Source: an uncultured Colwellia sp. | GTDB lineage: Bacteria > Pseudomonadota > Gammaproteobacteria > Enterobacterales > Alteromonadaceae | Direction of reading: 5' to 3' | Length of the DNA: 42,975 nucleotides | Assembly: GCA_913020705.1 (NCBI GenBank) | Contig: CAJWBY010000016.1 | Coordinates: 1 to 42,975 of the forward strand | In this document: piece by piece, positions 16,536 to 37,303 of the stretch | Layout: each line of letters opens with the position of its first letter | How positions within the stretch are numbered: position 1 is the stretch's first letter | Translations under genes and position numbers: made by a program | The notes under the pieces: model-generated | Database searches by the model: none | What the model saw: the letters and a program-made list of their open reading frames with translations, nothing else | Told to the model about the DNA's origin: nothing

Positions 16536-16670
16536 ATGAAAAAATCCTTCCAAATCTGTATTTCTTCAACAAAATTACCTTTTAAATCAGCAACATTTGC
16601 AACACATAGCACAAAAACTTTTCCTAATGTTTTTCTAGCAGCCACAAATGTAAGCAAGGCAATGACATGA
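16536..16670 (+). CDS. Small upstream ORF (44 residues) overlapping the BLUF gene start
   Basis: An ATG at 16536 opens a 44-codon frame beginning MKKSFQICISS, rich in Thr, Ser and Ala. Its TGA (16668-16670) overlaps the BLUF gene's start codon as ATGA. The ribosome binding site is weak (GTGG about 9 bases upstream). It might be a translated leader coupled to the photoreceptor gene or a chance frame. No family is recognised. Confidence 0.3.
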   Translation: MKKSFQICISSTKLPFKSATFATHSTKTFPNVFLAATNVSKAMT

Positions 16671-17089: not shown

Positions 17090-17103
17090 TTTGGAGACAT
17101 ACT

Positions 17104-21120: not shown

Positions 21121-21831
21121 CTATTTAAAATGCTGAATAACTTCATAGGTAATATTTAACAAATCAACATGTTTAACCTTAATTTCTGCTCCTTTGAAAT
21201 TAAATAATATGTGCGCATCTTTTGTATTTTCGATTGAAAATTCTTGGCTAAGGGTTGCTCTAGCCATACTTCCTGAATATTCAGAATAATTAAAGTTAAT
21301 CTTTCCGTTTGATAGTCCTTTATAAGATAACGTTTTTCTGAAGTAACCTCTTTCAGGCGTTAGACTATTATCACTAAAGATATTATAAGGAACATTTAAC
21401 GCGTAAGTTTCATCTCCGTTAAAGCTACCCATTTCAAAATAGCCATCCTTCTCTATATCGAATAAGCAAAACTTAACAAGATTTTCTCGATACTTAGCAT
21501 CATTAAAACAAGCCGCATTACCGCCTGAATCTGTCATACCTAATACTGTTGTTTTACCTTTAGATAACCCTGGATGTTCACCATTAATATACTGAATTTT
21601 TGAAAGTAAACTTACAGACTGTGTTTTATTTTCTAAATAACTACCTGAGACTTTAGATAATAAGTTATCACCAATAACAACAGTAAATTCTTTGAATAAT
21701 TCTGGGCTGTCCTTCTTAGCATTAACTACTTCAGCATCAGTAGATAAGTTTTGATATTTAGGCATCGAAGAACAAGCTGTGAGTATAATGCTACCGGTAA
21801 CAAAAAAAGCAATACGTAAAATATTTTTCAT
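21121..21831 (-). CDS. Putative lipoprotein of unknown function
   Basis: I do not recognise the family. The preferred start, ATG at 21831, gives a standard lipoprotein signal MKNILRIAFFVTGSIILTAC with lipidated C20; GGA sits about 9 bases upstream. The frame extends five codons further, to 21846, without a better ribosome site. The 236-residue product has alternating strand-like stretches and no membrane segment after the signal, so it is probably a periplasm-facing beta-rich protein. It is last in a run of minus-strand genes that starts with the J-domain gene at 24451, but the 89-base gap leaves operon membership open. Confidence 0.75.
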   Translation of the reverse strand: MKNILRIAFFVTGSIILTACSSMPKYQNLSTDAEVVNAKKDSPELFKEFTVVIGDNLLSKVSGSYLENKTQSVSLLSKIQYINGEHPGLSKGKTTVLGMTDSGGNAACFNDAKYRENLVKFCLFDIEKDGYFEMGSFNGDETYALNVPYNIFSDNSLTPERGYFRKTLSYKGLSNGKINFNYSEYSGSMARATLSQEFSIENTKDAHILFNFKGAEIKVKHVDLLNITYEVIQHFK

Positions 21832-21935
21832 AAATTTTTCCATCAATAATTTTTTCTAAAGGTTATTACATATTATTAGGTTGATTGATAAAAGCTTTAT
21901 GCTTTATTCATTCATCTGTAGATAATTTATATTCA

Positions 21936-22856
21936 TTACGATGCGTCAGGCCTTAAATAAGCAATATCGTCTTCATCATCAGCATGGAAGTCGTAACCTC
22001 CATCAAAATCATCATTTAACTCGTTAACAACAGTTATAGGCAGTTCTAAGATTTCTTGAATATAAATAGAAATATTTTCTTGTTGATTAATAATTCCCTT
22101 AAATTCGACAAAATCTAATAAATTTATATCTCGCAAGTATCCTTTAGTTAATACAGATAGATTCTCAGAAAAACGTGCGATACAGACTTCAACTTTGACA
22201 AGTATTGATGCTTTATCCGTTGTTGTAAAGTACGTATTTAGTTGCTCATATAGCGAACTAGTGAATACGGTTCTTTCTGAATCAATCAATAACAATGCAA
22301 TCGCGGTATTAAGGAATTTCTGCAATTCAAACATTAACACTTCTTCATCATTATCAATAAGCAGTGTGTTTGCACAATAATTGGCCGCAATACTTTTATA
22401 AACTTGTAAAAGTTTGGCACTTTTATAGCCTTCGTCAGCTAAAGCTTTATGCATGAGCCTTATATCAGAACTATCGTTAATTCCTAAAGCATAACTACAA
22501 ATAGAGACTTCTTCAAAGTAAGAGGGAGATACTTTTTTCAATTGAGCATATTTCGCCCAACCCGCCCTGAAACAATAAACGATTCCTTCGTTTTTAATTA
22601 TATCTTTTGCTCTATCTGTATCGTTACCACAAAGTTCTAATAACCCTAGATTACTCATACCTAGAACAATCTCACAACCTTTTCTAATTTGATCTGCATA
22701 AATTATCGATAAATTATCCGAAGCTATTCTCAAGGACATATCGGTTAATTGCTGTTGGGTTTTGTGCATAAATTCAGGTGTAAAATAACCTTCACTTTCT
22801 CCGTCTTTTAATACTAAAAGTAAAAAAGGATGATTTCGTAACTCTGCAATTCTCAT
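21936..22856 (-). CDS. Hypothetical protein in J-domain gene cluster, 306 residues
   Basis: This is an unrecognised, mostly helical cytoplasmic protein without a signal peptide or membrane segment. The first 270 residues look like a helical repeat or bundle with several cysteines. The tail (about 280-306) is strongly acidic, with DDFDGG and DDEDD. It is the fourth gene in the same-strand run behind a stand-alone J-domain protein, 84 bases after the previous gene. By association I suspect a chaperone-linked role, but nothing in the sequence proves this. Confidence 0.75.
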   Translation of the reverse strand: MRIAELRNHPFLLLVLKDGESEGYFTPEFMHKTQQQLTDMSLRIASDNLSIIYADQIRKGCEIVLGMSNLGLLELCGNDTDRAKDIIKNEGIVYCFRAGWAKYAQLKKVSPSYFEEVSICSYALGINDSSDIRLMHKALADEGYKSAKLLQVYKSIAANYCANTLLIDNDEEVLMFELQKFLNTAIALLLIDSERTVFTSSLYEQLNTYFTTTDKASILVKVEVCIARFSENLSVLTKGYLRDINLLDFVEFKGIINQQENISIYIQEILELPITVVNELNDDFDGGYDFHADDEDDIAYLRPDAS

Positions 22857-22940
22857 TTATGAATTCCAATCGATTAACTATCTTAAATAACGCGGTTCAT
22901 ATAGGCAAAATTAATACTGTATTTACCCTGGAAACACCAA

Positions 22941-23588
22941 TTAAAGTGGAGCAAACATATCGTCTGTATCCATTTCAACCGAAGTCACTCTTTGTTTATT
23001 GGCATTTTGTTTTAATGCATTTTCAATATTTTCGAGTGTTCCGTTGGTGCTAACAGTCATCACTTCACGATAAGCTTCTTCATTTAACGTTTTTATTTTC
23101 ATTAGCAATTCTTCAATGCTCCCAGATGTCTGCTCTTCATCTTCCTCTATTTCAGAGAAATCATGGCCTACAAACGGTAATGATAAATATAAAAGACCAA
23201 AATCATCTTCAACAATGGCGTTCAATACTTCTAATTGTTTCTCTTCATCATCTGAAGATAGGAATATTTGTGTTAATAAACTATGTGCCTCTGTTTGTGC
23301 ACAAAACACATGGTCTTCATCTAAATTTTGCCAATATGATGGTTCTACATTTAACAGTTGTTTAATAGAGTCAGCATCCATTAACCAAGTAGCAATAGAA
23401 GGTATGGTCGCATCATGCTCTCTTACAATTTTAGCAACAGTTAAAATGTCCATTTCGGTTAGAACGGCAAGCATAGTTTCATCGCCTTGTTCAGAGGCAA
23501 TTGTTTCTAATGAAGTGCCAGCACGTCTTCCACTATGTTGTGCTTGTTCAATAATGTCTGTAGCAAGAATTAATTCATTTGTAGTCAA
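22941..23588 (-). CDS. Hypothetical protein in J-domain gene cluster, 215 residues
   Basis: This is an acidic, helical, soluble protein of no family known to me. It has no signal peptide. A negatively charged stretch SEIEEDEEQ lies near residue 145, and the C-terminus ends in MDTDDMFAPL. The repeated small helical units in residues 10-130 (alternating LLTQIFLSS and LEVLNAIVEDD types) suggest an alpha-solenoid-like fold. It sits between the 153- and 306-residue unknowns on the same strand. Confidence 0.75.
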   Translation of the reverse strand: MTTNELILATDIIEQAQHSGRRAGTSLETIASEQGDETMLAVLTEMDILTVAKIVREHDATIPSIATWLMDADSIKQLLNVEPSYWQNLDEDHVFCAQTEAHSLLTQIFLSSDDEEKQLEVLNAIVEDDFGLLYLSLPFVGHDFSEIEEDEEQTSGSIEELLMKIKTLNEEAYREVMTVSTNGTLENIENALKQNANKQRVTSVEMDTDDMFAPL

Positions 23589-23663
23589 GGTGAATCCTTA
23601 AAGCTTATGAGTTATTTTGGTAATGTATTGCACCGGAAATTATAAAATAAGGTGTTTTAAATT

Positions 23664-24125
23664 CTAGTAATTTTCATCAAAATCATTCTGTTCGTCATCA
23701 TCGACTTGAGCATATTCATCTTCTTCAGCTTTTAACGGCGTCGCATCATAGCGATTATAAAAATGAATGAGCAAGATGGCTGCCTTTAGGTCTTCTTCTG
23801 CATGGGTCATGATCTCAGTGATACAGGTTCGGGCATCAGCATGAACTCCAACAAAAGGTTTAACTACATCCCAAGAAGGTTCAACAGTGAGTTCAATTTT
23901 TGAAAGGTTTTTACTATCAATTCTAACCTTGGTTGAAATAGCCATGGCTAATTGATCCGCCATACCTTCAAATAATAAAGGCATTTGCTTTAATTGTTCG
24001 AATAAGTTCGTTAGATAATTTGATAATAAGTCTGGATTTTCTGGATCTGTCAATGAATTCATATTCTCTAAATACATTGAAAAATCATCAGTTAGATAAT
24101 CTGGTAAATTGGTTTCCACTTGCAT
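23664..24125 (-). CDS. Hypothetical acidic protein in J-domain gene cluster, 153 residues
   Basis: An unrecognised cytoplasmic protein of 153 residues. The body (1-130) is helical; the last about 22 residues are highly acidic (EEDEYAQVDDDEQNDFDENY). It starts 65 bases after the J-domain gene on the same strand and is the closest partner candidate. No catalytic motif or cysteine pair is visible. Confidence 0.75.
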   Translation of the reverse strand: MQVETNLPDYLTDDFSMYLENMNSLTDPENPDLLSNYLTNLFEQLKQMPLLFEGMADQLAMAISTKVRIDSKNLSKIELTVEPSWDVVKPFVGVHADARTCITEIMTHAEEDLKAAILLIHFYNRYDATPLKAEEDEYAQVDDDEQNDFDENY

Positions 24126-24735: not shown

Positions 24736-25095
24736 CTAATTTTTCAAATATTTGAGCCTTTCCTTATAAACTAAATTTACTAAATCAATTTCTACGCCTT
24801 CTTTTATAGAATCAATTAATGCCGTAATAACATCCGGTTTAAATGCACTATTAAGAAAGAATTGCTTAATTTCTAATATCTCTCTTTTACAGGCAATAGG
24901 AGCAAATGTAATTGCTTCAGTAGGTGAACTCACTTTGGCAAATTGAATGCCCTTTTCTAATACACATTCTTCATATTTCAGTTTCATTTTATTGAAACCA
25001 GGTGTACTGAAAAACTGCTTAGAATGGCCAAATTCTTGAGCATTTACCAAAGGAATTAAGAAGAGAAATAAAGCTGTAAAAAGTATAGCTTTCAT
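24736..25095 (-). CDS. Small secreted protein of unknown function
   Basis: This 119-residue protein has a clear signal peptide (MKAILFTALFLFLIPLVNAQ, cleavage near residue 19). The mature part of about 100 residues has two cysteines (C44 and C69) that could form a disulfide. No family is recognised. Its ATG directly follows the TAG of the FN3 protein gene with no intervening base, so it is probably translationally coupled and part of the same system. It is the last gene before the operon terminator. Confidence 0.8.
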   Translation of the reverse strand: MKAILFTALFLFLIPLVNAQEFGHSKQFFSTPGFNKMKLKYEECVLEKGIQFAKVSSPTEAITFAPIACKREILEIKQFFLNSAFKPDVITALIDSIKEGVEIDLVNLVYKERLKYLKN

Positions 25096-27924
25096 CTAAT
25101 TTCCTTGCTCGGTTATTGGCATAGTAAAACTAACTGACTGAGATGGATTACCTTCTAGCTTATCACGGTCAATAGCAGTTATTTGATAACAATAACTTTT
25201 ACCACTTTTAACGCTTGAATCTAAATAAACATCATTTGAGCTATCAACAGTCGCTAATTTACGAACACCACTACATGAACTAGAATTACTTCGATAGACT
25301 TGATAGCTACGTATATCAGTATTATTAGAGGGCTGCCAAAAAACCATTAAGCCTCCAACGTCTTCTTCGATTGACAGTCCAGAAACGGTGTTAGGAATAG
25401 CTTTAGTCTTTGCTTCAATCTCTTCAGATAATCGACCTATTACTGAAAATTTATTATATGTCGCAATTTTATAGCCATAATTTGTACCATCTTCTAAGCT
25501 AGTAAACAAACTTCCTTCATCGGTATATTGTGTTTTTGATATATTTGATATTTTTTCAATCTCTTCAAATTTACCCTTTTTATTATTTCTATAAATCACA
25601 TATCCTTCATTATCAGGATCATTTGTAGACTCCCATGATAAAGACACCTGTTTTACTTGGTTACTCTGTGCAACTATCCTACGGGGAGCTTCAGGTAATG
25701 CTTTAGTAGTTCCTGATACAACATTTGAAGCAGGCATTTCTAAAAATTCATCAAAGGCGCTTAATTTATATTCATACTTAACACCTTCTTTCATATTTTT
25801 ACTATCAAAGTCTCTATATCCACTTTGCCTAGGAGATATACTTTTTTGAATGAGTTGCCATCTGCTGCTGTTAGCTTCTTTACGGTATAGCTTATAGCCC
25901 TTTATGTGTTTAACACTATTCCACGCAAGACTAATGGTTCTAAGCATAAATTCTTGATCAACAAATAAGGTTATTGAAAGCGGGCTATCAACTTGTTGTA
26001 TCGCCGATGGTTTGCTTACTAGACCCTTTTGATCTGTAACTAATATCTTATAAGACGTTTCAGCATAGGCTTTAAGATCTTCATCTAGATAACTAGTGCC
26101 ACTGACATTTGCAATTTTTTTCCAAGTTTCATTATTCCATTTACGAAACAAGCTGTAATTATCAATATCAGGCTCTGAATTGGCTTCCCAAGTTAGACTT
26201 ATACTATCTTGTTGGGCGATTGCCTGAAAATTATTAACGGGCTCTGGTAATGGTTTCGTTTCACCATCTACAGCAAAGCTAACATTTCCGGTACTACCAA
26301 ATAAGTTTCTCGCTGCAATAGCATAAAAGTATTTCTCACCATCTTTCAAAGGTGTTGCACCTAATCCATCGACAAACTCATTGGTCATGTACCCATCAAC
26401 AAAAGCAATTTCAACAAGTAGATCGCCAGAGGACATTGAACCTGCTTTGCGGTATATAACATAACCGCTTACATCGTTGTCATCACTGGCCTGCCAAGTT
26501 AATCTGACACTTTTGACCATATTTGATTCAAGCTGCAGGTTTTCAGGTGGGCTTGGAAGATCTTTAGTTCGTACTAAAACATTGTTTGACTTGGTAGTTT
26601 CAGTAAATTCATCAAAAGCAGTAACGCTATATTGATATTGTTTACCATCTTGTAAACCTTGAGTATCAATTGTAGACAACCGAGATATATCAGAAGTTTC
26701 ATACACTAATTGCCAATCCGTTTTTTCTACTTCTTTTCTGTAAAGTTTATAGCCATTACCCAAATTGGCTTGTGTCCATGACAGCTCAGTTTTTCGCAAA
26801 GACTTACCTTCTTTAGCTTGTAACACTAAAGCGGGATGCGTTGTAACCGTTAATATATCAGAGCGTTTACTTTCACCAAGTTCGCTGTAGGCGGAAACAT
26901 AAATTTGGTAACCAGCATTAGCAGCAAAGTTCTTATTAAGTACTTGTGAATAATTTAACTGATTAGTTTTGGCAATTGAATGAACTTTCTTCCATTGCTG
27001 GTCATTTACTCTTTGATAAAAATTATAACCCACCACGCCCTTATTATTGAGCTGTGGTACCAAGTTAATTTTAATACCATGTAATAAATTATCCGAACCT
27101 AAAATAATGGGTGGTAATAAATTATCATCAACGATATTGCCAGTTGCCTTAGCACTGACAATTTGTTTCCCTTTGATCTCGTTTCCATTATCTAAAACTA
27201 GATCTAATCTATAGAATAATTCGCCTTGGGCATTGTCTTGGTATTGAGTTTCTTCAACACTGGTCACAAATTCAAACAAGCCATCTGCTGACTTGCCACG
27301 ATAAACATTCGTATAAAAAACAGGTACACCTTCGTTAATAGCCCAACTAAGAAACACGCCGGAGTCTTTAGCAATTGCGGAGATACTTTTAAAGTGCTCA
27401 ATTTCATTTTCCATTGAAGCAGAAGATACATTACTCAAATTATCTTCTGCTGCAGAGAAAATAGAGTTTTTAATATCTTCAGCTAATGTTGTTGCACGTT
27501 GTAATACATCACCACGTCCGGTATAACTTTCTTGCCAAGTATTAACGACTCGACCTCCAATGATATCAATCAAGTTAATATTCACCTTCATCGAGCTGCC
27601 CAATTTATCGACATCACCCGTTAAAATGAAGCTAACGCCCATTTCTTGGCCATACGCTATAACTAGATTAGTATCAGAAACTTGTGCTCCACCAATTCGG
27701 TGTAATACCGCTTCAATATCTCGTCGAGAAAGTACTGATATTTCCGAAGACTTCCCTAACTCTACTTCTAGAGAATAAAGTAAATCCGCATCGGCACCAA
27801 TAGCATCCATACTTATAGGTCTTAAGTTAAATAGCGCAATTGAATTAACACTTCCAGCAACAGCTGGTAGGCTAAAACAAAATAGAAAACTTAATAAAAC
27901 CAGTCTTTGTCGTAAAACATTCAT
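25096..27924 (-). CDS. Secreted protein with CsgG/FlgO-like N-terminus and about eight fibronectin-III repeats
   Basis: A 942-residue exported protein (signal peptide ending AVAG, about residue 24). Residues 25-165 resemble the CsgG/FlgO-type fold: SIALFNL, then a sensitive ISVLSRRDIEAVL block, GVSFILTGDV and a final strand. From about 180 to the end I count eight FN3-like modules. Each has the pattern L.W near its start, Y.(I/L)YR in the middle, and (G/A)..Y.Y.(I/V)(T/S)A near its end. There is no C-terminal sorting signal or membrane helix. FN3 arrays usually mediate protein or glycan contacts. It is third in the leftward operon, 16 bases after the CsgG lipoprotein gene. Confidence 0.85.
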   Translation of the reverse strand: MNVLRQRLVLLSFLFCFSLPAVAGSVNSIALFNLRPISMDAIGADADLLYSLEVELGKSSEISVLSRRDIEAVLHRIGGAQVSDTNLVIAYGQEMGVSFILTGDVDKLGSSMKVNINLIDIIGGRVVNTWQESYTGRGDVLQRATTLAEDIKNSIFSAAEDNLSNVSSASMENEIEHFKSISAIAKDSGVFLSWAINEGVPVFYTNVYRGKSADGLFEFVTSVEETQYQDNAQGELFYRLDLVLDNGNEIKGKQIVSAKATGNIVDDNLLPPIILGSDNLLHGIKINLVPQLNNKGVVGYNFYQRVNDQQWKKVHSIAKTNQLNYSQVLNKNFAANAGYQIYVSAYSELGESKRSDILTVTTHPALVLQAKEGKSLRKTELSWTQANLGNGYKLYRKEVEKTDWQLVYETSDISRLSTIDTQGLQDGKQYQYSVTAFDEFTETTKSNNVLVRTKDLPSPPENLQLESNMVKSVRLTWQASDDNDVSGYVIYRKAGSMSSGDLLVEIAFVDGYMTNEFVDGLGATPLKDGEKYFYAIAARNLFGSTGNVSFAVDGETKPLPEPVNNFQAIAQQDSISLTWEANSEPDIDNYSLFRKWNNETWKKIANVSGTSYLDEDLKAYAETSYKILVTDQKGLVSKPSAIQQVDSPLSITLFVDQEFMLRTISLAWNSVKHIKGYKLYRKEANSSRWQLIQKSISPRQSGYRDFDSKNMKEGVKYEYKLSAFDEFLEMPASNVVSGTTKALPEAPRRIVAQSNQVKQVSLSWESTNDPDNEGYVIYRNNKKGKFEEIEKISNISKTQYTDEGSLFTSLEDGTNYGYKIATYNKFSVIGRLSEEIEAKTKAIPNTVSGLSIEEDVGGLMVFWQPSNNTDIRSYQVYRSNSSSCSGVRKLATVDSSNDVYLDSSVKSGKSYCYQITAIDRDKLEGNPSQSVSFTMPITEQGN

Positions 27925-27940
27925 ACTTTAAACCTATAGC

Positions 27941-29947
27941 TTATCTAAAAGCATGTTCATTTATAATAGTTTCTAAGTATTTATTCGCTTGTGTTGTGAT
28001 GGGTGAGTTGACTACCGATTTCAATTTTTCATCAAAAATAGCATTCACAAATTGTTCAACAGCGTTTAAGTTTTCTTTACGTCGTAAATATAGCCCTTCG
28101 CCATCTTCAAAATATTTTTTCTCTAGATTTCGTAACGGCTGTAAAACACCACGAGATAATTCTTCAACAACTTCAGAAGCCATATGTTGTAACAACTCAG
28201 TGTCTGTTGAAATTTCTAATGGATCAAATATTACATTAGCATCTTTAATTCCTTCATTAGAGCTATCTTCAACTACCTTTTGACGTTTGATCGTTTCAAC
28301 GCGCTTATTAGCACCAGTAGCAAAATCAACTATTTTGAAAGATAGTTGAAAGAAACCAACTTTCTTCATATTGGTCACTTTATACTCTTTTTCTTCATAT
28401 TTAGGAACCATGATTTTAGCTGGAGGAGCCGATCGTAATTCATCTTTTGAAGGTTTAGGGTTCATTGCTCTCCAATTCAAGTAATCGATGTTATCTGAAA
28501 TTTCTTCACCAACACTATATCGAACTGTTTTAGAGCTAATAGATTCACTAGTATCTACTTTATAAAGAAGTACGCTTCCCATGATAGCTGTATCAATACC
28601 ATATAATCGTCCCATCTCTTGAGCACTTGACTCGGATACAACGCCAATTTGGCCAAGTTTCATTTCTTCTAAAATTGATTTTAAATTTTCACGTTCTAAA
28701 ATAATAATATCTTTAGATGCGCTATTAAATAAATTTGCAATTAAGTTGTTTGCGACTAAAACACCGGCATCTTGGCCGTAAGAAGGGCTTTTAAAATCAA
28801 ATACAGCGATTTGTTTTCTAATACGAACGGTTATGCTGTCTTCTATCTCTTTTATTTTTTGAAATAAATCAGGGTAATAAGGATTAAAATCTTTGATTCT
28901 ATTTAACAAGTACCAAGAAGATCCATATTTCCCTCGCTCAGCTAACTCTTCTGCGGTTACATCTATTTTATCAGATAATGATGCTTTTAACGCCGACAAT
29001 GTTTTGTTATCTTTGCCGTCATTTACTACTTCAGCTTCTTGAAAACTGGCTATACTTTTTGCCAAATAACCTTTAACCATTAACTGACGGGCTTCACTAA
29101 TAAGAGTTGATGTCCATTTGTCTTTAGCAGCCTCCATCTCTTCAACGCAATATGCGTTGCTCGATTCATAACTAAGCACTTTTTTACATGCACTATAAAC
29201 TGTTGCCCAATCGGACTTTACTGCTGCGGTCTGAGCAAGGCTAATAAAGAACTCTTTATTATTTTTTTTGTTAGTTAATGATATTAATTGCTTAGCTTTA
29301 GGATTATTACTATTAACAGTAATTGCCTTTCGGGCAAACGCTAAAGTACTTACAAAGTCATTTACACGATAAGCATCATTAGCTTTCTGCAAATAAAAGC
29401 GACTACCTGAAATTTTAATTTTTTGACTAAGTTGAGAACTATCTTCGTAATTAGGAAATAGCTGGGTTAATTTACTCACAGCAAACTTTGCTTTTATCCA
29501 TTCCTGGCTTGCTATATTCGATTCAACCGTTGTATATAGAGCTTTAACTTTTACTTGTAACGCTTCTTGCTTACTAGCAATTAAAGCTTCGGCCCCTTCA
29601 TAAGAACTATGTCTAGATAGTATAGACTTTGCCTTATTTAATGTTTCGTTAGCACTATCAAGGTTAGCCTTGTTTAATGTTCCGTCGTTTAAGGTTTTGT
29701 TCAATTTTGTAATTAATTGAACGACCGCTTTTTGGCGTGCCTCAGTGAGCATTGCCGCATATTGTCTATTTTCTGGATCATTTTTTACTGCCTGTTCCAA
29801 ATAGGCTACAGCTTCAACATATTTGTGAGACGACATCAACTGTTGCGAAATATTGAATTCATTACTGTTTACTTTCTTTTCAGTTGTGCCACAAGCAGAT
29901 AAAACGCCTAATGCTACTGACAGAACGAGTACTTTTTTATTTAACAT
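27941..29947 (-). CDS. TPR-like and CsgG-domain outer-membrane lipoprotein
   Basis: A 668-residue lipoprotein (lipobox LSAC, C19; the next residue Gly favours outer-membrane sorting). Residues 30-370 are helical tetratricopeptide-like repeats (SHKYVEAVAYLEQAVKNDPE is a clear one). From about 378 a CsgG-type domain begins with IRKQIAVFDF. It continues through LVANNLIANLF, DIIILERENLKSILEEMKLG and YGIDTAIMGSVLLY, and finishes near 580 with FQLSFKIVDFATG. CsgG is the curli-export pore lipoprotein; FlgO-like flagellar proteins share the fold. Whether this one forms a pore is unknown. It lies 8 bases after the FlgT-like gene. Confidence 0.85.
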   Translation of the reverse strand: MLNKKVLVLSVALGVLSACGTTEKKVNSNEFNISQQLMSSHKYVEAVAYLEQAVKNDPENRQYAAMLTEARQKAVVQLITKLNKTLNDGTLNKANLDSANETLNKAKSILSRHSSYEGAEALIASKQEALQVKVKALYTTVESNIASQEWIKAKFAVSKLTQLFPNYEDSSQLSQKIKISGSRFYLQKANDAYRVNDFVSTLAFARKAITVNSNNPKAKQLISLTNKKNNKEFFISLAQTAAVKSDWATVYSACKKVLSYESSNAYCVEEMEAAKDKWTSTLISEARQLMVKGYLAKSIASFQEAEVVNDGKDNKTLSALKASLSDKIDVTAEELAERGKYGSSWYLLNRIKDFNPYYPDLFQKIKEIEDSITVRIRKQIAVFDFKSPSYGQDAGVLVANNLIANLFNSASKDIIILERENLKSILEEMKLGQIGVVSESSAQEMGRLYGIDTAIMGSVLLYKVDTSESISSKTVRYSVGEEISDNIDYLNWRAMNPKPSKDELRSAPPAKIMVPKYEEKEYKVTNMKKVGFFQLSFKIVDFATGANKRVETIKRQKVVEDSSNEGIKDANVIFDPLEISTDTELLQHMASEVVEELSRGVLQPLRNLEKKYFEDGEGLYLRRKENLNAVEQFVNAIFDEKLKSVVNSPITTQANKYLETIINEHAFR

Positions 29948-29955
29948 TATTATTC

Positions 29956-31059
29956 CTAATTTATTCTTAATGTAACATGATTAGCATTAACACTAATTAA
30001 TTCGAGTTGATATTCTGATTTTAATGGCCCAGCAAATACTTCGTCATACAATTGCTCAGGCCAACCTTTATACTTAAGTAAAAATTGACTTTTTTCTTGA
30101 GAAAACTCAATTAACTCAACATCTAATAAGCCTGAAACGCTTTGTTTCAATGAACGAGAAAAAGATTTAGCTTGTTCAAAATTGTTCAATTGTTTTACAT
30201 CTAGATAGATAGAACGGGCAATATATTGTTCTTCTTGCCAAAAATCTAAAATTTCGTTTTTTAAACCTCGCCAAGCTTTCCTTACTAATTTATTAGAAAG
30301 TTGCTGTGTTATTTTACCTAGATTACTTCCTGCTTTTGAGGCGTTTTGAGTCCTAGTAGCGATAACCTGACCATCATCAGTTCTTGTTACATTAGTAACT
30401 AAAGACAAATTGTTAGAAGCAATACTGATCCCTTGATAGTCACTTTTATTTGTCTGTAAATCAGCATTAATTTCTAATACAAATCCTGTTTTCACTTTTT
30501 TTGAATCATCAAAAACCTCAAAACCATTCTGATTTAGTTTGGTGATAAATAAGGATTTCAAGCTACTGCCAAGGCTAGCATTATTTGAGTTAACGTTTAA
30601 AGTAATACGAGGCTTACGACTCCAGCCATTTACTTTTAAAATTTCTTTTATATCAACGAGTAATTCTTGAACATCAACATTGGCTTCAATTTCAACTTCA
30701 TATGCACCGAAGTCATTTACACCTTCAGATAGAACAGTGTAAGCAGATATATTACCTGAAGAGGAACTATAAATTTTGTCTTGGGCGATAACAAAGTCGG
30801 TAACTGTAGAGCGAGATTGAACAAAAGCTCCTGCAACTTGCTCTACTGCAGCACGTTTAGCATTATTAAGCGCTATTGATCGAGTTTTAGCTTTTTTCCC
30901 TTCAACTATGTCACTAATACCCTTTGCTGTGACAACTTTCGCGTGAGAATTTACTGAAATTAATAATAGAATGAAAAAGGATAAAAACACCGTTTTCCCG
31001 AAAAGGATAGATTTTTGAAGCATAATTTCCCTTGCATTTGCAATTAATATTTGAAGCAT
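29956..31059 (-). CDS. FlgT-N/LPP20-like exported protein
   Basis: A periplasmic protein of 367 residues, or 355 from the second start at 31023. After the signal peptide (ending NSHA), residues about 42-135 have the FlgT N-terminal/LPP20 pattern: VVTAKGISDIVEGKKAKTRS, then ALNNAKRAAVEQVAGAFV, S.STVTDF, and a closing strand YEVEIEANVDV. The remaining 230 residues resemble the middle region of flagellar FlgT in length only. A 36-base tandem duplication covers the start, so two ATGs (31059 and 31023) each have their own AAGGGAA ribosome site. The shorter form has the more usual signal peptide. It is the first gene of the leftward operon. Confidence 0.82.
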   Translation of the reverse strand: MLQILIANAREIMLQKSILFGKTVFLSFFILLLISVNSHAKVVTAKGISDIVEGKKAKTRSIALNNAKRAAVEQVAGAFVQSRSTVTDFVIAQDKIYSSSSGNISAYTVLSEGVNDFGAYEVEIEANVDVQELLVDIKEILKVNGWSRKPRITLNVNSNNASLGSSLKSLFITKLNQNGFEVFDDSKKVKTGFVLEINADLQTNKSDYQGISIASNNLSLVTNVTRTDDGQVIATRTQNASKAGSNLGKITQQLSNKLVRKAWRGLKNEILDFWQEEQYIARSIYLDVKQLNNFEQAKSFSRSLKQSVSGLLDVELIEFSQEKSQFLLKYKGWPEQLYDEVFAGPLKSEYQLELISVNANHVTLRIN

Positions 31060-31085
31060 GATTTCCCTTGCGTTTGCAATTAACG
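31014..31085. repeat. 36-base tandem direct repeat over a start codon
   Basis: Copies at 31014-31049 and 31050-31085 differ at only a few positions. Each contains, on the minus strand, AAGGGAA and an ATG followed by CTTCAA. The unit is exactly 12 codons, so both starts are in frame for the FlgT-like gene. Confidence 0.92.
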
Positions 31086-31246
31086 TTCTATGGACAAAAG
31101 TCCAATAAAAAGAATAGTGAAATCTTTCTAATAAAATATTACACTATTTTACATATTGTTCAATTGTCGCATAAGATTAATAATAACTAAAATTTAATTA
31201 TATTTGATGTTACAAAATTTAGCCAAGTTATAAAGGATACTTATTT

Positions 31247-31702
31247 ATGAGAAATATCTCATTAAATCGCATTGCACTTATATTATTGATCACTAACTTT
31301 ACACTTTTCCCTGTATTGGCCGAGGAGCATAAAGGTCTACTTACAGCGAAGGGTTTTGGTACCGTGGACATAGAAAAAACCATCAGTAATTTTCAAGCTA
31401 AGATGATGGCCAAGCGTGCAGCATCACTTGATGCTCAGAGACAGTTAACAGAAATAGTTCAAGGTGTTCAACTAAGCTCTGGCACTTCAGTTGAAGATTT
31501 TGAAGTTACTAAAGATATTATAGCAACGAGAGTGAGAGGCTTAATAAAAGGCGCTTTTATTTTAAACGAATCGGTAAAGCCTGATGAAGGTACGTTTGTT
31601 GCCGAAGTTACTTTAGCGATTTGTTCAACCAATGAATCTGAAATTTGTAGTAAACGAGATTCGATTAAATTAATAAGTGAAAGTATCAGTGAAAAAAATT
31701 AG
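31247..31702 (+). CDS. LPP20/FlgP-like exported protein, 151 residues
   Basis: A small periplasmic protein with signal peptide (to about LAEE, residue 25) and a single LPP20/FlgP-like domain. Key blocks are LLTAKGFGTVD, AKRAASLDAQRQLTEIVQGV, SSGTSVEDF and VRGLIKGA. FlgP of Vibrio has the same RA..LDAYR.L.E..G...S..T.V pattern and forms an outer-membrane ring. It lacks a lipobox cysteine, so unlike FlgP it is not lipidated. It opens the rightward operon and its end overlaps the transglycosylase start. Confidence 0.82.
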   Translation: MRNISLNRIALILLITNFTLFPVLAEEHKGLLTAKGFGTVDIEKTISNFQAKMMAKRAASLDAQRQLTEIVQGVQLSSGTSVEDFEVTKDIIATRVRGLIKGAFILNESVKPDEGTFVAEVTLAICSTNESEICSKRDSIKLISESISEKN

Positions 31703-33119
31703 TTTCTCACTTACAGTAATCAGCACATTACTGCTATTTAGTTCAAACCTTGTTGCAAAAAATCTGCAAGAGCAAAGTTTTGACAACATAGACAGAATGC
31801 TCGATCAACAATTCAAACAAAAAAACAACGAAATTGACAGTTTATATAATGCTTATAATGACGCGATAAATGACGCATTTAATGGCATAACTAAAAAAAT
31901 CGAAGTTAAATGGCCAAGTAATGTCAAACTGCCAACTAAAAGTACCTGGGTTGGTTATAGTAAAAACTTGCAAACCCGCTCAATCGTAGATTATCAAGCG
32001 GGAGAGCTTGTTATAGAAACGCTGGTTACTAATAACGATTTGGGCAAAGCAACACTTGAACTTGAAGCAATGGCAGAGCAATTAACGGCTCCAACCTCGA
32101 AATCGATAGATGAACTGGATATCGTTGCTCAAGAAGTAAATAAAAACTTAAGTAAAAAAGGTATAAAACCCGCTTTACAGCCGTTGAAAGATGATAATAT
32201 TTTAAAGGAATTACTCCCGAAAAAAGAGTTATTGAAAGCGGCAACAGTAAATATAGATGAAGTCAAAAAAACAGTACAATTAACCACCCCAATTACAACT
32301 GAAGAAAGTGTAGCATCTATAGTTCCCCCATCTTCTACTGCAATAATTCCTGAAATCGTTACCGTTCCAGCGATAATACCTATTCCACCTCTTCCTGTTA
32401 TCCCGACTATTACAGTTAAAAATGAATTACAAAGCCAAGAGACCTTAAAAGCTTCAGTTGCTAAACCACTCAAAAATACAGAACCAGCAATTAAATTAGA
32501 CTTAGTAAAAACCGCTGAAGGTTCAGTCTTAAAAATGACGGTCAAATTTGTAAATAACTATCAAAAAGTGTTATTAGCTAATAATTTTGATGACGTAAAG
32601 AAATTTTCTAAGAAATATGATGTCGATATTTCAGTGATTTTAGCCATCATTGAAACAGAATCTAGTTATAATCCAAGAGCAATTTCACGTGTTCCAGCTT
32701 TTGGTTTAATGCAACTCGTTCCAAAAACTGCTGGAATAGATGCTCATAATTATGTGCATGGTCAAAAGAAAGTATTATCCCCTGATTATTTGTTTGATGA
32801 AACGAATAATTTACAACTAGGGACTGCCTATTTTAAATTATTAAAAAGTCGATATTTAAGAAAAATTGATGATCCCCAATCACGTTTTTATTGTGCTGTA
32901 TCTAGTTATAATACAGGTGTTGGAAATTTAGCTAAAACCTTCACAGGTAAAAAAAACTTATCTAAAGCGGCTAAGATAATCAATACAATGACGGCAGAAG
33001 AAGTTTATCAGTATTTACTTGTAAACTTACCTGCAGAAGAAACTCGAAATTATCTCAAAAAAATAGTCAAGCGTAGAGCTAAATACATACATTTTGATAA
33101 CGAAACAAAGGGAATTTAA
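31689..33119 (+). CDS. MltC-like lytic murein transglycosylase
   Basis: A periplasmic peptidoglycan lytic transglycosylase of 476 residues. The N-terminal part (30-130) resembles the DUF3393 domain of MltC (WVGYSKNLQTRSIVDYQAGE). A Pro/Ile-rich linker follows (about 210-245), then the SLT catalytic domain. The catalytic Glu is E324 in ETESSYNPRA, followed by GLMQLVPKTAG and SSYNTGVGN. E. coli MltC is a lipoprotein; here the signal (MKKISFSLTVISTLLLFSSN region) has no lipobox cysteine, so the enzyme should be soluble in the periplasm. GTG 31689 is chosen over GTG 31677 for its better purine-rich spacing; it overlaps the previous gene by 14 bases. Its role may be opening the wall for the surrounding envelope proteins. 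Confidence 0.88.
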   Translation: MKKISFSLTVISTLLLFSSNLVAKNLQEQSFDNIDRMLDQQFKQKNNEIDSLYNAYNDAINDAFNGITKKIEVKWPSNVKLPTKSTWVGYSKNLQTRSIVDYQAGELVIETLVTNNDLGKATLELEAMAEQLTAPTSKSIDELDIVAQEVNKNLSKKGIKPALQPLKDDNILKELLPKKELLKAATVNIDEVKKTVQLTTPITTEESVASIVPPSSTAIIPEIVTVPAIIPIPPLPVIPTITVKNELQSQETLKASVAKPLKNTEPAIKLDLVKTAEGSVLKMTVKFVNNYQKVLLANNFDDVKKFSKKYDVDISVILAIIETESSYNPRAISRVPAFGLMQLVPKTAGIDAHNYVHGQKKVLSPDYLFDETNNLQLGTAYFKLLKSRYLRKIDDPQSRFYCAVSSYNTGVGNLAKTFTGKKNLSKAAKIINTMTAEEVYQYLLVNLPAEETRNYLKKIVKRRAKYIHFDNETKGI

Positions 33120-33121
33120 TC

Positions 33122-34153
33122 ATGGTAAAATATCTAATCGTATATTCATTAATATCATTCATGTTGAGCAGTTTTTCCGTATTAGCAGAAGATGTCATCC
33201 AAGGGACTGATACGGGTGGTATTAATTGGTCTAAAGGTACTATATTTGCTAGTGGTTATGGCGTTGCTTCAGATAACACACCAAACCGTAAAAAGCGATT
33301 GATGGCTCGAAGAGCTGCACAAGTCGATGCATATAGAAATTTGGCAGAAATTATATCTGGTGTACAAGTGAGTTCTGAAACTACCGTTTTAGACTTAGAA
33401 GCTACATCAGATATTATTCGTACTAAATTGAACACCTTAATTAGAGGCGCATTGGTCACCAAAGATATTTACCAAAATGAAATAGCTCAAGTAGTTGTTG
33501 AAGTGAAAATGGATGGTTCTTTTATTGAATCCATTTCTCAACATGCGACCAGTGATCATAGTTCAATTTTCATAGAATCAAATACAGTAAATACTAAATT
33601 CTCAGATCAATATTATCTAGAAGCATTAACGTCTTTATTTTCTCCAAAAAACTGGCAATTTATAAGTAAAGCACATGCTGCAACTCCGCCAGCAGCAGAA
33701 ACGACTGTATCTTTATTACGAGAAATACAAACAAAATTACATAAACTTCCTAAAAAAGAACTTTTGCAATATGTTGAAGCTAAAATAGATAGCCTTGAAA
33801 ACATCAACAATATTTCAGGCTTGCTAATTGATGCGCAAGGTATTGACCAGTTTGAACTAGCGACTATACCGAGAATACGCACACAAGATGGCAAAGTAAT
33901 TTATCCTACTAAAGAAATGCTCAATAGTAATAATATTAGAAAGCGCCCTGTTTCATATGATCTAGATCTTCGAGATGCTATTAACGATAGGCGAATTGGT
34001 TACACTCCTTATGTTGTGAAAGCAATTGGGACTTATAAATCAAAAAATTCAGATCTAATTGTTTCTGATGATGTAGCATTATTTATTAAAAATAATTTAG
34101 ACCTTGCTAAAACGATGGATGAAGGTCGTGTAATGATTGTTGTTTCGCCATAA
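33122..34153 (+). CDS. LPP20/FlgP-like exported protein, 343 residues
   Basis: A periplasmic protein with a signal peptide ending VLAE (about residue 22). Residues 35-140 form an LPP20/FlgP-like domain: IFASGYGVASD, MARRAAQVDAYRNLAEIISG, SETTVLDL and LNTLIRGALV. A linker with HAATPPAAE leads to a helical stretch and then a C-terminal domain (about 225-343) starting SGLLIDAQGI. The C-terminal domain is shared with the protein at 36257-37210, so the two are paralogues. It starts 2 bases after the transglycosylase stop, clearly the same operon. Confidence 0.82.
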   Translation: MVKYLIVYSLISFMLSSFSVLAEDVIQGTDTGGINWSKGTIFASGYGVASDNTPNRKKRLMARRAAQVDAYRNLAEIISGVQVSSETTVLDLEATSDIIRTKLNTLIRGALVTKDIYQNEIAQVVVEVKMDGSFIESISQHATSDHSSIFIESNTVNTKFSDQYYLEALTSLFSPKNWQFISKAHAATPPAAETTVSLLREIQTKLHKLPKKELLQYVEAKIDSLENINNISGLLIDAQGIDQFELATIPRIRTQDGKVIYPTKEMLNSNNIRKRPVSYDLDLRDAINDRRIGYTPYVVKAIGTYKSKNSDLIVSDDVALFIKNNLDLAKTMDEGRVMIVVSP

Positions 34154-34370
34154 AAATTCATTTATAAAATTACAGAAAATATCATAAACTCATTAAGCTG
34201 ATTAATGATAATGTTATAAAATAGAAACGTAGAGTGCATAGATAATTATTTTTATCTAAATTTTTGAATAATAATCAATAAGTAAAAGGGTTGGTCAAAT
34301 AAAATTCCAGAGTATACGAATAATAAATCAACACGGAATTTAAATAAGCCTAATCACAAAGGAGAAGTGA

Positions 34371-36233
34371 GTGAACAGCATGAAGATTAAATTATTGTTT
34401 AGTGTAGGCATTGCAATAACGTTACTAACGAGCTGTTCTATCAGCACCAAGGGTACAATTGCTATTACCAGCCCGATTAGAACCTTAGAAAACATGACCT
34501 CAGGCGAGCAAGATAAATTAGCAATAAGTGACATCCCCAAAGTCATTGCTATTGCTCAATTATCTAATAGTACTGAATCTATCGAAGCCTCTTCAGTACT
34601 TAGAGAGATATTACAAAGTCATCTTTCTAATAAAAACTTTCAACTTGTTCATACAAAAGAGGTTGATCTCAAAAACCCAGAAAATAAATTATCTCCTCAA
34701 CAATTAGCACAAACTCTTGGTGTAGACGCTGTTGTAGTTGGTGAAGTTGTCGAATATGAAAGATTCTACGCAGGTATATATGCCCATATAAAATTAGGTG
34801 TCGATATTGAATTAATATCTAAAGACGGCAAAACCTTGTGGCAAAAAAAGGAAGTCATTACTTCAAGGGCTGGTGGTGTTTCAACTACAATTTGGGGAAT
34901 ATTACTGAATGCGGCCTTAGCTGCCCAACACCTTGAAGACAAAAATTTATTCGCTGCAGCTGATGAATTAGGTCGTTCTATAGCAAATGAATTTCCTGAA
35001 CCTGATGGTTATATCGGTACCGCCATACCAACGATTGATATGGTAATTCACGATGGTGCAAACAAATGGTTAAAATATAATGACAATTTAACTGTTGGTA
35101 TCAAAGGACAAAAAGGCTTGAGAGCTGTATTAGATATAGAAGGTATTGGCTCATTTGATTTAAAAGAACAAGAATCAGGTATTTATAAAACAGATATTAT
35201 TGTTGATAAACGTTGGAACGGTGAACAAAAGGTCATCACAGGGAAATTAATAGATAATACTGGCCAAATTACTCAAATGATTAGTACCACAGGTTTAGTG
35301 AACTTTGATAATCTGAAACCGACAAATGTAAGTGAATTAAAGGTTGATTTCGCAACTACCGATGAAATAAAGCTTTCGTGGAAAAATAATAATCAAGAAC
35401 ACGTTAACTATAAAGTATTGATGACTTCACTTGATAACAATTTAACCGAAACTACTATAACTAAAGACACTAATATTGTTTTCAATGGTGATTTTGAAGC
35501 TTTTAAAACACTAGAATTTGCGGTTATTGCGCTGGATAAGGCAGAAAATGAAAGTGCAAAAACAGTAGTTTCAGCAAAAGCATACCCTATTAAATTAGCT
35601 GAAACTTCAATACTGAGTAGTACGCTATCGGGTTCATATCAGGGTATTAATATTTTAAGTAAAGAAAATAGCCCTTATATCGTAGCTGCTAAGACTGTGT
35701 TTACTGAAGGCTCTACTTTGATCATTGAACCCGAAGTTAAAGTCAAATTTAAACAAGGTGCAGGGATTACGGTTCAAGGCTTAGCTTATTTATGGGGTAA
35801 TACAAAACAATTACCTAAAAGCATTATTTTTGAAAGTGAATCGGTACAATCACCTGCAAAAAAATTCTTAACTTTAGACAGCAGTAAAACGATTGAAATT
35901 AATGGGCTTCACCTAAAAAATTCAGGTGTGGGAATAGAGATAAAATCAGGGTCACCTCGCTTTAACCATTTATACTCTGATAATGCTAAGTACTCTGCAT
36001 TAACAATCAATGGTCGTGCTAACGTAAAAATAAAAAATTGCCTGCTAAACGGTAGTTCTACTAGTGCAATTGTATTATCTGGTCGTTCTCGTTTAGCACT
36101 TGATAAATGTAATTTCACCAATAATCAACCTTTTCATATTCAAAATTCATCCGCATTCCCTGTTGTAGCAAAGGATGTGATTTTTGATAAAAGCACTAAA
36201 ATGCCAATGCTTGGTGCATTAGAAACTAACTAA
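34371..36233 (+). CDS. Multidomain lipoprotein: DUF799/CsgG-like, FN3-like and predicted beta-helix
   Basis: A 620-residue lipoprotein with lipobox LTSC and lipidated C22. Residues about 50-210 resemble the DUF799/CsgG-like lipoprotein fold (IPKVIAIAQL, LGVDAVVVGEVVEYERFYAG, IKLGVDIELISKDGKTLWQK). Residues 225-315 look beta-rich, and 318-405 like one FN3 module (LSWKNNN...YKVLM). Residues 420-600 look like a right-handed beta-helix with repeated short strands (INGLHLKNSGVGIEI, LTINGRANVKIKNCLLNG). The start is GTG 34371 with AAAGGAGA 6 bases away; the ATG at 34380 is too far from it. A 217-base gap precedes it, so it may have its own promoter. Confidence 0.8.
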   Translation: MNSMKIKLLFSVGIAITLLTSCSISTKGTIAITSPIRTLENMTSGEQDKLAISDIPKVIAIAQLSNSTESIEASSVLREILQSHLSNKNFQLVHTKEVDLKNPENKLSPQQLAQTLGVDAVVVGEVVEYERFYAGIYAHIKLGVDIELISKDGKTLWQKKEVITSRAGGVSTTIWGILLNAALAAQHLEDKNLFAAADELGRSIANEFPEPDGYIGTAIPTIDMVIHDGANKWLKYNDNLTVGIKGQKGLRAVLDIEGIGSFDLKEQESGIYKTDIIVDKRWNGEQKVITGKLIDNTGQITQMISTTGLVNFDNLKPTNVSELKVDFATTDEIKLSWKNNNQEHVNYKVLMTSLDNNLTETTITKDTNIVFNGDFEAFKTLEFAVIALDKAENESAKTVVSAKAYPIKLAETSILSSTLSGSYQGINILSKENSPYIVAAKTVFTEGSTLIIEPEVKVKFKQGAGITVQGLAYLWGNTKQLPKSIIFESESVQSPAKKFLTLDSSKTIEINGLHLKNSGVGIEIKSGSPRFNHLYSDNAKYSALTINGRANVKIKNCLLNGSSTSAIVLSGRSRLALDKCNFTNNQPFHIQNSSAFPVVAKDVIFDKSTKMPMLGALETN

Positions 36234-36256
36234 TAACTTAAATTTGAGATAATAAA

Positions 36257-37210
36257 ATGAACAAATCACTAAGCATTATCATTATCACCTTGTGTTCATT
36301 AACGGCCAATGCAGAAGATGGTCAGTACACTGAACTTGTTGGGAATACTGGTGAAATAAATTGGACTAAAGCAACAGTTTCAGCCATAGGTTATGGTATA
36401 GCAGGTGAAGGAAAGAAAGCTAATATAGCTCCTTACCTTGCTTGTCGAGCAGCAAAAGTTGACGCACAAAGAAATTTATTAGAGTCGTACCAAGGTGTTA
36501 GAGTAACGGCAACAACATTGGTTAGTAATTACATGTTATCCAGTGACGAAGTAAAATCATCAGTTGAGGGAACCGTTAAAGGCGCTATCATAAAAAGTAG
36601 AGATAATCGTATAGACGGTTCTTGTAAAGTAGTATTGGAAGCGCCTCTAAGAGGTAAAATATCAAAGTCTATTTATCAAGACTTATATCAAGAAGAAGTG
36701 TCCGCGAGTATTCTTCCAAACTTATGGTCACTTTGGATCGGCACAGCTCATGCTGCTAGCTATCCGACAGTTTCTAATCAGCAAATTAGTGACCAATTAA
36801 GCCAGCTAAGCAAGCGCATTTCTGATCTTGAAAAAGGTGTAAAAGCAACGAATGTTAATGATGTTCAAACACATGATATTTCAGGTATTATTATCGACGT
36901 AAGAGGTACAAGCTTTACACCTTCACTCAACCCTAAAATTCGTAAAGCTGATGGCGATGTTCTTTATCCTAACAGAAGTGATACTCAAGATATTATCGAC
37001 AACGGTCAACTTGTTTCATTATTTGCTAATAATGTTACTTTTGCGATGGATCATCCTATGATTGGAGATACTCCTCTGTTAATAAAGGCGAAAAAAACGT
37101 GGAAAAATTTACATACAGAAATAGCATTAGCCGATAATGACGCTCTTAAACTCACCTACTTAATCAATAAAAACTTATTGAAAGATATTGGTGTAATTAT
37201 AGTTTTATAA
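36257..37210 (+). CDS. LPP20/FlgP-like exported protein, 317 residues
   Basis: A periplasmic protein with a signal peptide ending TANAE (about residue 19). It is a paralogue of the protein at 33122-34153, with the same EINW/INW motif followed by TVSAIGYGIAG, ACRAAKVDAQRNLLESYQGV and VEGTVKGAI. The linker has HAASYP, and the C-terminal domain opens SGIIIDVRGT. The two extra cysteines (C61 and C111 region) could form a disulfide. It is the last gene of the rightward operon, 23 bases after the lipoprotein gene and followed by a terminator. Confidence 0.82.
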   Translation: MNKSLSIIIITLCSLTANAEDGQYTELVGNTGEINWTKATVSAIGYGIAGEGKKANIAPYLACRAAKVDAQRNLLESYQGVRVTATTLVSNYMLSSDEVKSSVEGTVKGAIIKSRDNRIDGSCKVVLEAPLRGKISKSIYQDLYQEEVSASILPNLWSLWIGTAHAASYPTVSNQQISDQLSQLSKRISDLEKGVKATNVNDVQTHDISGIIIDVRGTSFTPSLNPKIRKADGDVLYPNRSDTQDIIDNGQLVSLFANNVTFAMDHPMIGDTPLLIKAKKTWKNLHTEIALADNDALKLTYLINKNLLKDIGVIIVL

Positions 37211-37260: not shown

Positions 37261-37303
37261 AAAAAAAGCACTGATAATATTTCATTATATCAGTGCTTTT
37301 TTA
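37261..37303. terminator. Bidirectional terminator
   Basis: AAAAAAGCACTGATA and TATCAGTGCTTTTTT form a 15-base perfect stem with an 11-base loop, flanked by A and T runs. It lies between the convergent LPP20-like gene and the Lrp-type regulator gene and serves both. Confidence 0.92.

Follow-up and report, generated by a model that had tools for sequence, protein, structure and literature searches.

Which function could be served by nine neighbouring genes that code for exported FlgT-, FlgP- and CsgG-like proteins, in a stretch of DNA in which no flagellar or curli genes were found? The stretch in question (hereafter the window) is the forward strand of positions 1-42,975 of contig CAJWBY010000016.1 (GenBank assembly GCA_913020705.1, uncultured Colwellia sp.), i.e. 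42,975 nt in total, and the nine genes, here called A to I, lie in two divergent runs. Following the results below, it seems that they encode a flagellum-independent outer-membrane ring assembly that was ancestrally the partner of an unusual MCE transporter, a reading to which, taken as a whole, we assign a probability of about 0.6. It starts from the locus in the closest related genomes, where genes of an MCE-type ABC transporter stand between G and H, and from a short remnant at the same place in the window. The features concerned are:

24736-25095, minus strand: A, small secreted protein of 119 amino acids (aa) without a Pfam family
25096-27924, minus strand: B, 942 aa, putative N-terminal CsgG/ABA-like domain and about six FN3 domains
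27941-29947, minus strand: C, 668 aa lipoprotein, TPR superhelix (residues 29-376) and CsgG/FlgT-middle-like domain with a long charged beta hairpin
29956-31059, minus strand: D, 367 aa, FlgT-like, with a predicted SHS2 domain, ABA (LptE/PelC/CsgG-type) domain and C-terminal domain
31060-31246, no strand: divergent intergenic region between both gene runs, with promoter-like sites no commoner than in shuffled sequences
31247-31702, plus strand: E, 151 aa FlgP/LPP20-like secreted protein
31677-33119, plus strand: F, 480 aa MltC-like putative lytic transglycosylase (SLT), no lipobox seen
33122-34153, plus strand: G, 343 aa FlgP/LPP20-like protein with a second conserved domain
34304-34378, plus strand: putative remnant of an MCE (MlaD-like) C-terminus, 26 codons, overlapping the start of H; parent gene most likely lost
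34371-36233, plus strand: H, 620 aa lipoprotein, GNA1162-like, FN3-like and beta-helix parts
36257-37210, plus strand: I, 317 aa, paralogue of G (by alignment)
24663-24632, minus strand: terminator-like stem downstream of A, at the end of the left gene run (14 pairs, loop of 4, T-run)
about 37261-37302, plus strand: terminator-like inverted repeat and T-run after I, seen by eye, with approximate limits

In the next relatives (loci L003, L004 and L005), five genes lie between G and H, which code for a TPR membrane protein, a lipoprotein, an MlaE permease, an ABC protein and an MlaD/MCE protein (family scores in L004: MlaE 123.3 bits, ABC 38.6 bits, MlaD/MCE 32.0 bits). Of the MlaE, ABC and MCE genes the window has none, but it keeps a remnant of the last: between the end of G (34153) and the start of H (34371) the window encodes IPEYTNNKSTRNLNKPNHKGEVSEQH, which matches the last residues of the L004 MCE protein (54%) in frame and overlaps the start of H as the intact L004 gene does. 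The initial annotation of the window gave the spacing of the left run (0, 16 and 8 bases) and the first part of the right run (26-base overlap and 2 bases) correctly, but passed over the gaps of 217 bases between G and H and of 23 bases between H and I, the former being the informative one. Similar matches to the MCE C-terminus are found at the same site in L001 (34%) and L002 (42%). The remnant of the window scores 23.5 bits, versus 21.9 bits for the best of 1972 control segments of the window sequence (1637 of which gave any match). A tree built on C groups the window with L001 and L002 as a clade (100/100) nested inside the block-bearing L003, L005 and L004. The genomes that contain L001 and L002 (G001 and G002, both metagenome-assembled drafts) gave no divergent MlaE and no MCE orthologue at any other place. 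These remnants, the nested clade and the lack of a copy elsewhere in the two genomes together indicate that the five-gene block was most likely lost in the lineage of the window. At the deletion scar (34100-34420) no repeats of at least 9 bases were found. The initial annotation had presented the lack of an inner-membrane component as part of the system, which does not hold as given, since the relatives have an MCE-type ABC transporter in the same locus and the window keeps its remnant. The second MlaE of G001 and G002 (L094:5232-9962 and L095:5180-9900) lies in an operon that reads as ordinary Mla with an intact Walker A motif, and that presumably also carries a STAS protein, an RsbW-like kinase and a PP2C-type phosphatase.

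Since the loss of the transporter, purifying selection has continued to act on the nine genes. Between the window and L001, which both carry the remnant, the nine genes have ratios of nonsynonymous to synonymous substitution rates (dN/dS) of 0.056-0.100, next to 0.024-0.074 in five flanking genes taken as controls. Between the window and L002, a locus from which the control genes are absent, the values of the nine genes are 0.070-0.136. With a dS near or above 1 in some genes, single values of this ratio are rough.

To what extent the nine genes belong together was followed in 55 C-bearing loci of GTDB species genomes, obtained from 20 aligned C homologues by a (non-exhaustive) scan on two peptide patterns. 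These loci come from Alteromonadales-type Gammaproteobacteria and otherwise mostly from Desulfobacterota. With the window left out, the family of B is present in 51 and that of D in 48 of them, next to 19 for A and 22 for an F-type SLT protein; by best match G is found in 24, E in 22 and I in 12 loci, and H is present in 11, some loci ending at contig ends. The families thus recur together in other genomes (B and D above all), as was implied by the earlier claim of a single unit. The gene order, on the other hand, varies: Alteromonas-type loci run in one direction, Catenovulum has E-F-G before D-C-B, and Colwellia has two divergent runs. That the content is kept despite the rearranged order supports a functional unit. 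MlaE and ABC-type genes lie inside the C locus in 16 Alteromonadales-type loci, mostly as members of a block of five MCE-transporter genes, and in 15 of the 16 an MCE gene was called as well. The MlaE family is also present in L019, L023 and L029 and the MCE family in L019, so that MCE was called in 16 of the 19 MlaE-family loci (L023 and L029 end there, and the last open reading frame of L010, of 279 aa, is unclustered). Combined, L006 and L099 give one 14-gene run of Marisediminitalea: D, C, B, A, E, F, G, TPR protein, lipoprotein, MlaE, ABC, MCE, H and I.

At the level of genomes the C system is patchy in its distribution. In a sample of 394 genomes from the order of G001, full-length C is found in one (G001 itself), while 27 more give weak matches to part of it that do not exceed 79 bits, and the system is present in 2 of the 6 genomes of the genus of G001. 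In a sample from the order of G008 (Candidatus Desulfatibia vada; order taken as Desulfobacterales), full-length C (at least 455 bits) occurs in 21 of 146 genomes. Per genome, the best three candidates were scored for C and the best six for MlaE in the sample of 394, and the best eight for C and up to 17 for MlaE in the sample of 146. Three Glaciecola/Paraglaciecola loci (L024, L028 and L034) have an MCE-less cluster, with no match to G in the locus and a longer FN3 protein B (1239-1269 aa). In five Desulfobacterota loci (L027, L032, L035, L038 and L040), D-C is preceded by radical-SAM, HemB-like, radical-SAM and CBS-domain genes (read by eye from L040; clusters f12, f23 and f22, the CBS cluster not being called in L038).

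The transporter itself is unusual. With a profile built from ten copies, the divergent MlaE orthologues of the C-bearing genomes score at least 148 bits and other MlaE proteins at most 111 bits, with the second piece of a broken copy in G444 set aside (148.7 bits for the copy and 80.5 bits for the second piece, i.e. broken or cut at a contig end). This search covered the C-bearing genomes of 50 of the 55 loci (all but L005, L011, L013, L014 and L042), with the genome of L007 not included. The class is rare in the order of G001, where none of the 394 genomes sampled has it (at an E-value of 1e-45), and was found in 42 of the 146 genomes sampled from the order of G008; five of these hits (G545, G540, G505, G457 and G474) align with most of the profile at no more than 138-167 bits and may belong to another subclass. 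In all 48 copies of the accompanying ABC subunit (two unrelated clusters, L022 and L033, and pieces below 150 aa left out) the Walker A motif GxxxxGK[ST], any GK[ST] near the N-terminus and an LSGG-type signature are lacking, whereas all 19 control ABC genes, called beside ordinary MlaE in 20 loci (two control MlaE, L158 and L164, being without an adjacent ABC call), have both Walker A and signature. By eye, the Walker B stretch and its glutamate are kept in the aligned Alteromonadales-type copies, while in two aligned Desulfobacterota copies the Walker B part is altered too. This suggests that the ABC subunit is seemingly unable to hydrolyse ATP and would have a structural or regulatory role. 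The MCE protein is of an elongated type, with 301-390 aa in 46 copies (Desulfobacterota pieces of at most 280 aa left out); for the elongated MlaD of Veillonella parvula it has been proposed that it bridges the membranes (PMC10665443).

Among the Desulfobacterales genomes sampled, the operon of divergent MlaE, ABC and MCE genes is often oriented divergently from FlgP-like, H-like, FlgT/CsgG-like, FecR and TPR-SpoIID genes. This was quantified for 33 divergent-MlaE loci from genomes without full-length C, versus 20 ordinary MlaE loci. Genes of the ring families (profiles derived from the C loci and not from the loci tested) lie within about 10 kb in 13 of the 33 versus 1 of the 20 loci (p 0.009). 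For SpoIID the counts are 14/33 versus 0/20 (p 0.0004) and for FecR 8/33 versus 0/20 (p 0.02), p-values that are optimistic because both profiles were built from the same loci and 22 neighbour families were examined; CHASE2 is not enriched near divergent MlaE (6/33 versus 2/20 in the controls, p 0.7). The Desulfobacterales neighbourhood is a second, partly independent association of the transporter class with ring-type genes. With SLT in the Alteromonadales-type loci and SpoIID in Desulfobacterales, a peptidoglycan-cleaving type of protein recurs with a different chemistry. Neighbour families f7, f8 and f11 were set aside as housekeeping genes (NAD kinase, MetK and SAH hydrolase). In one Desulfobacterales locus (L049:14135-15253), a TPR protein after D-C-B reads, by eye, as an N-acetylmuramoyl-L-alanine amidase, a third kind of peptidoglycan enzyme at these loci.

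What kind of assembly the nine proteins could form follows from their domains and predicted folds. As the initial annotation had it, C reads as a TPR and CsgG-like lipoprotein, with a TPR superhelix, a lipobox ('LSAC') and a CsgG match of 30.2 bits (Pfam cut-off 20.8), and F as an MltC-like enzyme, with SLT (83.3 bits, cut-off 21.3) and Mltc_N (29.5 bits, cut-off 22.6). On the strength of its SLT domain, F is predicted to be a lytic transglycosylase. The proposed FN3 array of B is borne out by Pfam (fn3, 81.1 bits, cut-off 25); its CsgG-like part is not seen by Pfam, gives nothing significant against solved structures and appears only in the profile-profile match of the B N-terminus to the CsgG-like domain of C (probability 81%, E 1.3e-5), which suggests that B and C share a CsgG/FlgT-middle-type domain. 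Similarly for H, the beta helix stands (Beta_helix, 30.4 bits, cut-off 25.9), while the GNA1162-like part stays below the cut-off (24.1 versus 25.9 bits) and the N-terminus matches C at a profile-profile probability of 41%. The four proteins that had been called LPP20/FlgT-N-like miss the Pfam cut-offs (FlgT_N in D: 22.4 bits, cut-off 28.8; LPP20 in E, G and I: 12.8, 18.5 and 19.1 bits, cut-off 25.9) and are joined instead by profile-profile comparison (D N-terminus to G N-terminus, E 6e-11; D N-terminus to E, E 5e-10; G N-terminus to E, E 6e-24). It is therefore likely from their profiles that D, E, G and I share a FlgT-N/FlgP-type domain.

At the level of structure, a joint profile of G and I matches the solved FlgP (8z5n_2) at E 1.2e-11, and the alignment is ungapped through the region of the ring-type insert between the helix and the second strand (limits of the insert set by eye; its use as a mark of ring-forming FlgP was taken from PMC12222027). 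The best structural match of G is PDB entry 9hmf, named 'Lipoprotein, putative'. The model of D matches FlgT in Foldseek (8z5n_0, E 2.6e-11 over 375 columns; 3w1e, E 3.9e-11 over 384 columns) and has the three-domain architecture of FlgT, with a DUF330 structure (which we take to be the PqiC family) among the matches of its middle domain. The predicted fold of the main domain of C resembles those of the FlgT middle domain, PelC and TolB more closely than that of CsgG. Its hairpins (residues 462-482 and 513-528) are 31% and 37% charged, with a mean hydropathy of about -0.7 on the better face (no CsgG sequence serving as yardstick), so that C is predicted not to be a CsgG-type membrane pore. Matches of D and C to HpaA, LptE, TolB and TraT reflect the common ABA-type fold. 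The idea that C is the TraC of outer-membrane exchange in Myxococcus was dropped (18.3 bits, cut-off 500), as was a role in anti-phage defence (no PADLOC family for any of the nine proteins at E 0.001).

From these elements a working model can be put together. D (FlgT-like), E, G and I (FlgP-like) and C, B and H (FlgT-middle/CsgG-like) would form a ring- or disk-like assembly in the outer membrane and periplasm, for which the transglycosylase F would open the peptidoglycan. In the ancestral state this assembly would be the outer half of an envelope-spanning system, with the MlaE-like permease, the elongated MCE protein, the non-catalytic ABC subunit, the TPR membrane protein and the lipoprotein as its inner half. 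The elongated MCE protein would be the conduit across the periplasm, and its outer end would be seated or steadied by the rings at the outer membrane. As the ABC subunit does not appear capable of ATP hydrolysis, cargo would move passively or draw on some other source of energy. In the Colwellia-like lineage of the window the five inner genes would have been deleted and the outer assembly kept; that it was kept under selection points to a job of its own, for example as an outer-membrane scaffold or as a dock for the housekeeping Mla system. What the sequences show is the gene content and its conservation, the remnant and the loss, the lack of ABC motifs and the selection; the fold classes are predicted, and the placing of D, G, I and C in rings at the outer membrane, the MCE conduit and the lipid cargo are what we infer. 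The specific picture, i.e. a ring stack that seats an MCE conduit with a non-ATPase ABC subunit, through which lipid or other hydrophobic cargo passes with no ATP spent at this stage, and which survives in the window as an independent outer-membrane machine, is put forward as tentative and, in its details, rather doubtful. The outer-membrane/periplasmic assembly with its own transglycosylase, as initially proposed, is supported in so far as the genes are co-conserved and separate from a better-scoring FlgT; the absence of an inner partner by nature is not supported as given, and C is predicted not to form a CsgG-type pore.

Several observations weigh against a ring assembly that was ancestrally coupled to the transporter. 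Divergent MlaE was found in only 19 of the 49 C-bearing genomes searched, many C genomes thus being without the transporter, and at the level of genomes the association in Desulfobacterales is weak (divergent MlaE in 9 of 21 genomes with full-length C versus 33 of 125 without). Likewise, not one of the neighbour families tested turns up in 13 of the 33 divergent-MlaE loci from genomes without full-length C (several of these being short contigs). The match of the remnant is short (26 codons, about 23 bits), with an internal stop in L001, and elongated MCE proteins also occur outside the class: of 19 control MCE proteins 14 have 147-180 aa and 5 have 329-461 aa, so length alone is no class marker. 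The TM-scores of D to FlgT are low (0.26-0.31), which means that the domains agree in order and not in their mutual arrangement. Finally, the MCE-less versions in Glaciecola/Paraglaciecola and in the window show that the ring part can do without the transporter. This last point leads to the view that the nine genes make a free-standing outer-membrane scaffold or adhesive surface structure (with the FN3 array, beta helix and FlgP-like disk as its parts), next to which MCE genes are frequent, easily lost neighbours through operon building. It fits the life of the window lineage and the Glaciecola group without the block, the purifying selection that continued after the loss, the weak genome-level association just given, and the fact that outside the Alteromonadales-type loci the MlaE family is confined, in the stretches fetched, to L019, L023 and L029. 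However, two distant groups both have the divergent MCE class beside ring-family genes, in differing orders and orientations, and such neighbours are more frequent there than at ordinary Mla loci (13/33 versus 1/20). A free-standing scaffold is therefore possible, if on the unlikely side.

The resemblance of D to FlgT over its length, and of G and I to FlgP, could also mean that the cluster is an extra flagellar accessory, such as an H/T-ring or basal-disk set for a polar flagellum. In all seven relatives' genomes tested, however, a separate protein exceeds the FlgT_N cut-off (65.7-91.2 bits, presumably the flagellar FlgT). D is a weaker match (21.8-25.6 bits) in six of the seven and not the best FlgT of its genome; in the seventh (G006) D is not listed and a second protein above the cut-off (40 bits) lies elsewhere. 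Together with the Pfam scan of 33 window proteins, in which neither flagellar nor curli genes appeared besides the CsgG-type match itself (in agreement with the initial annotation), this makes a flagellar role improbable. That C exceeds the CsgG family cut-off and has PelC, of Pel export, among its fold relatives would fit a secretion pore of the CsgG type, curli-like or otherwise, through which a protein or polysaccharide is exported; the charged hairpins of C render such a pore very improbable. Decay after the loss of the transporter, for which the reduction of the MCE gene to a remnant would speak, can hardly be right, with nine intact open reading frames and dN/dS values near those of the five flanking controls.

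If the coupling of rings and transporter is true, the finding ties flagellar outer-membrane rings to MCE lipid transport, two fields that are usually apart, and proteins of motor rings would also serve envelope transport. There would then exist in nature a class of MCE transporters whose ABC subunit is conserved and yet seemingly non-catalytic, which bears on the question of what powers MCE transport, while the lineage of the window, with its loss and remnant, would be a natural experiment in which ring function is separated from transporter function. In the open-licence PubMed Central papers searched, among them PMC11756786, PMC12222027 and PMC10665443, no description of the system was found.

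As for the remainder of the window, all nine open reading frames are intact, with coordinates and strands as first annotated, and every product carries, as claimed, a signal peptide (A, B, D, E, F, G and I) or a lipobox (the one of C and 'LTSC' in H), the signal peptides and lipoboxes all being read by eye. Of the terminators placed at both ends, the one after A has its 14-pair stem and T-run, and the one after I is seen by eye only and absent from the scan, whose five terminator-like sites are not above the number in shuffled sequences (mean 7.5). No RNA family at the gathering threshold and no tRNA were found in the window, and there is no sign of a plasmid origin in a search of C against 72,556 plasmid records (tblastn) or of positions 33000-34500 (blastn). 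Beside the cluster, four genes without assigned function lie at 21121-24125 on the minus strand (241, 306, 215 and 153 aa), the 306-aa protein being just over the DUF6178 cut-off (27.9 versus 25.5 bits); L001 has open reading frames of near-equal size in the same order (the 215-aa protein being 96.7% identical), and the set is absent from the L002 locus. On the plus strand, a BLUF blue-light sensor gene is followed by a chemoreceptor (HAMP and MCPsignal) at 16667-18798, possibly a light-taxis pair, and 19107-20951 codes for an angiotensin-converting-enzyme-type peptidase (Peptidase_M2, 744.9 bits).

How, then, does the cluster compare with known systems? MltC is a lipoprotein; F shares its SLT and Mltc_N domains, but reaches only 180.2 bits where the NCBIfam MltC equivalog cut-off is 375, and has no visible lipobox. 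CsgG is the secretion pore of curli, with which C has the Pfam match in common, and from which it differs by the predicted lack of membrane-type hairpins and by the absence of other curli genes among the window proteins scanned. FlgO, FlgP and FlgT build outer-membrane rings (H-ring, T-ring and basal disk) around the sheathed flagellum. The domain order of D is that of FlgT, E, G and I appear to fall in the FlgP/LPP20 SHS2 family and the main domain of C is predicted to be nearest to the FlgT middle domain, whereas the large TPR superhelix of C, the FN3 array of B and the beta helix of H set the cluster apart, as do its linkage to MCE genes in relatives and the better-scoring FlgT elsewhere in their genomes. 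With the Mla/MCE transporters (MlaFEDB, and Veillonella parvula with its elongated MlaD) the relatives share the MlaE permease, an ABC subunit and an MCE protein of the elongated type, but their ABC subunit is without Walker A and signature and ring-type partners stand in the locus. Pqi and Let (Yeb) are MCE systems that work without an ABC ATPase; a point of contact with them is the DUF330 structure among the matches of D, while the permease in the relatives' locus is of the MlaE type (no search aimed at PqiA/LetA-type genes was made). The parts are of known kinds, and their combination, as judged by the open-licence papers above, is apparently new.

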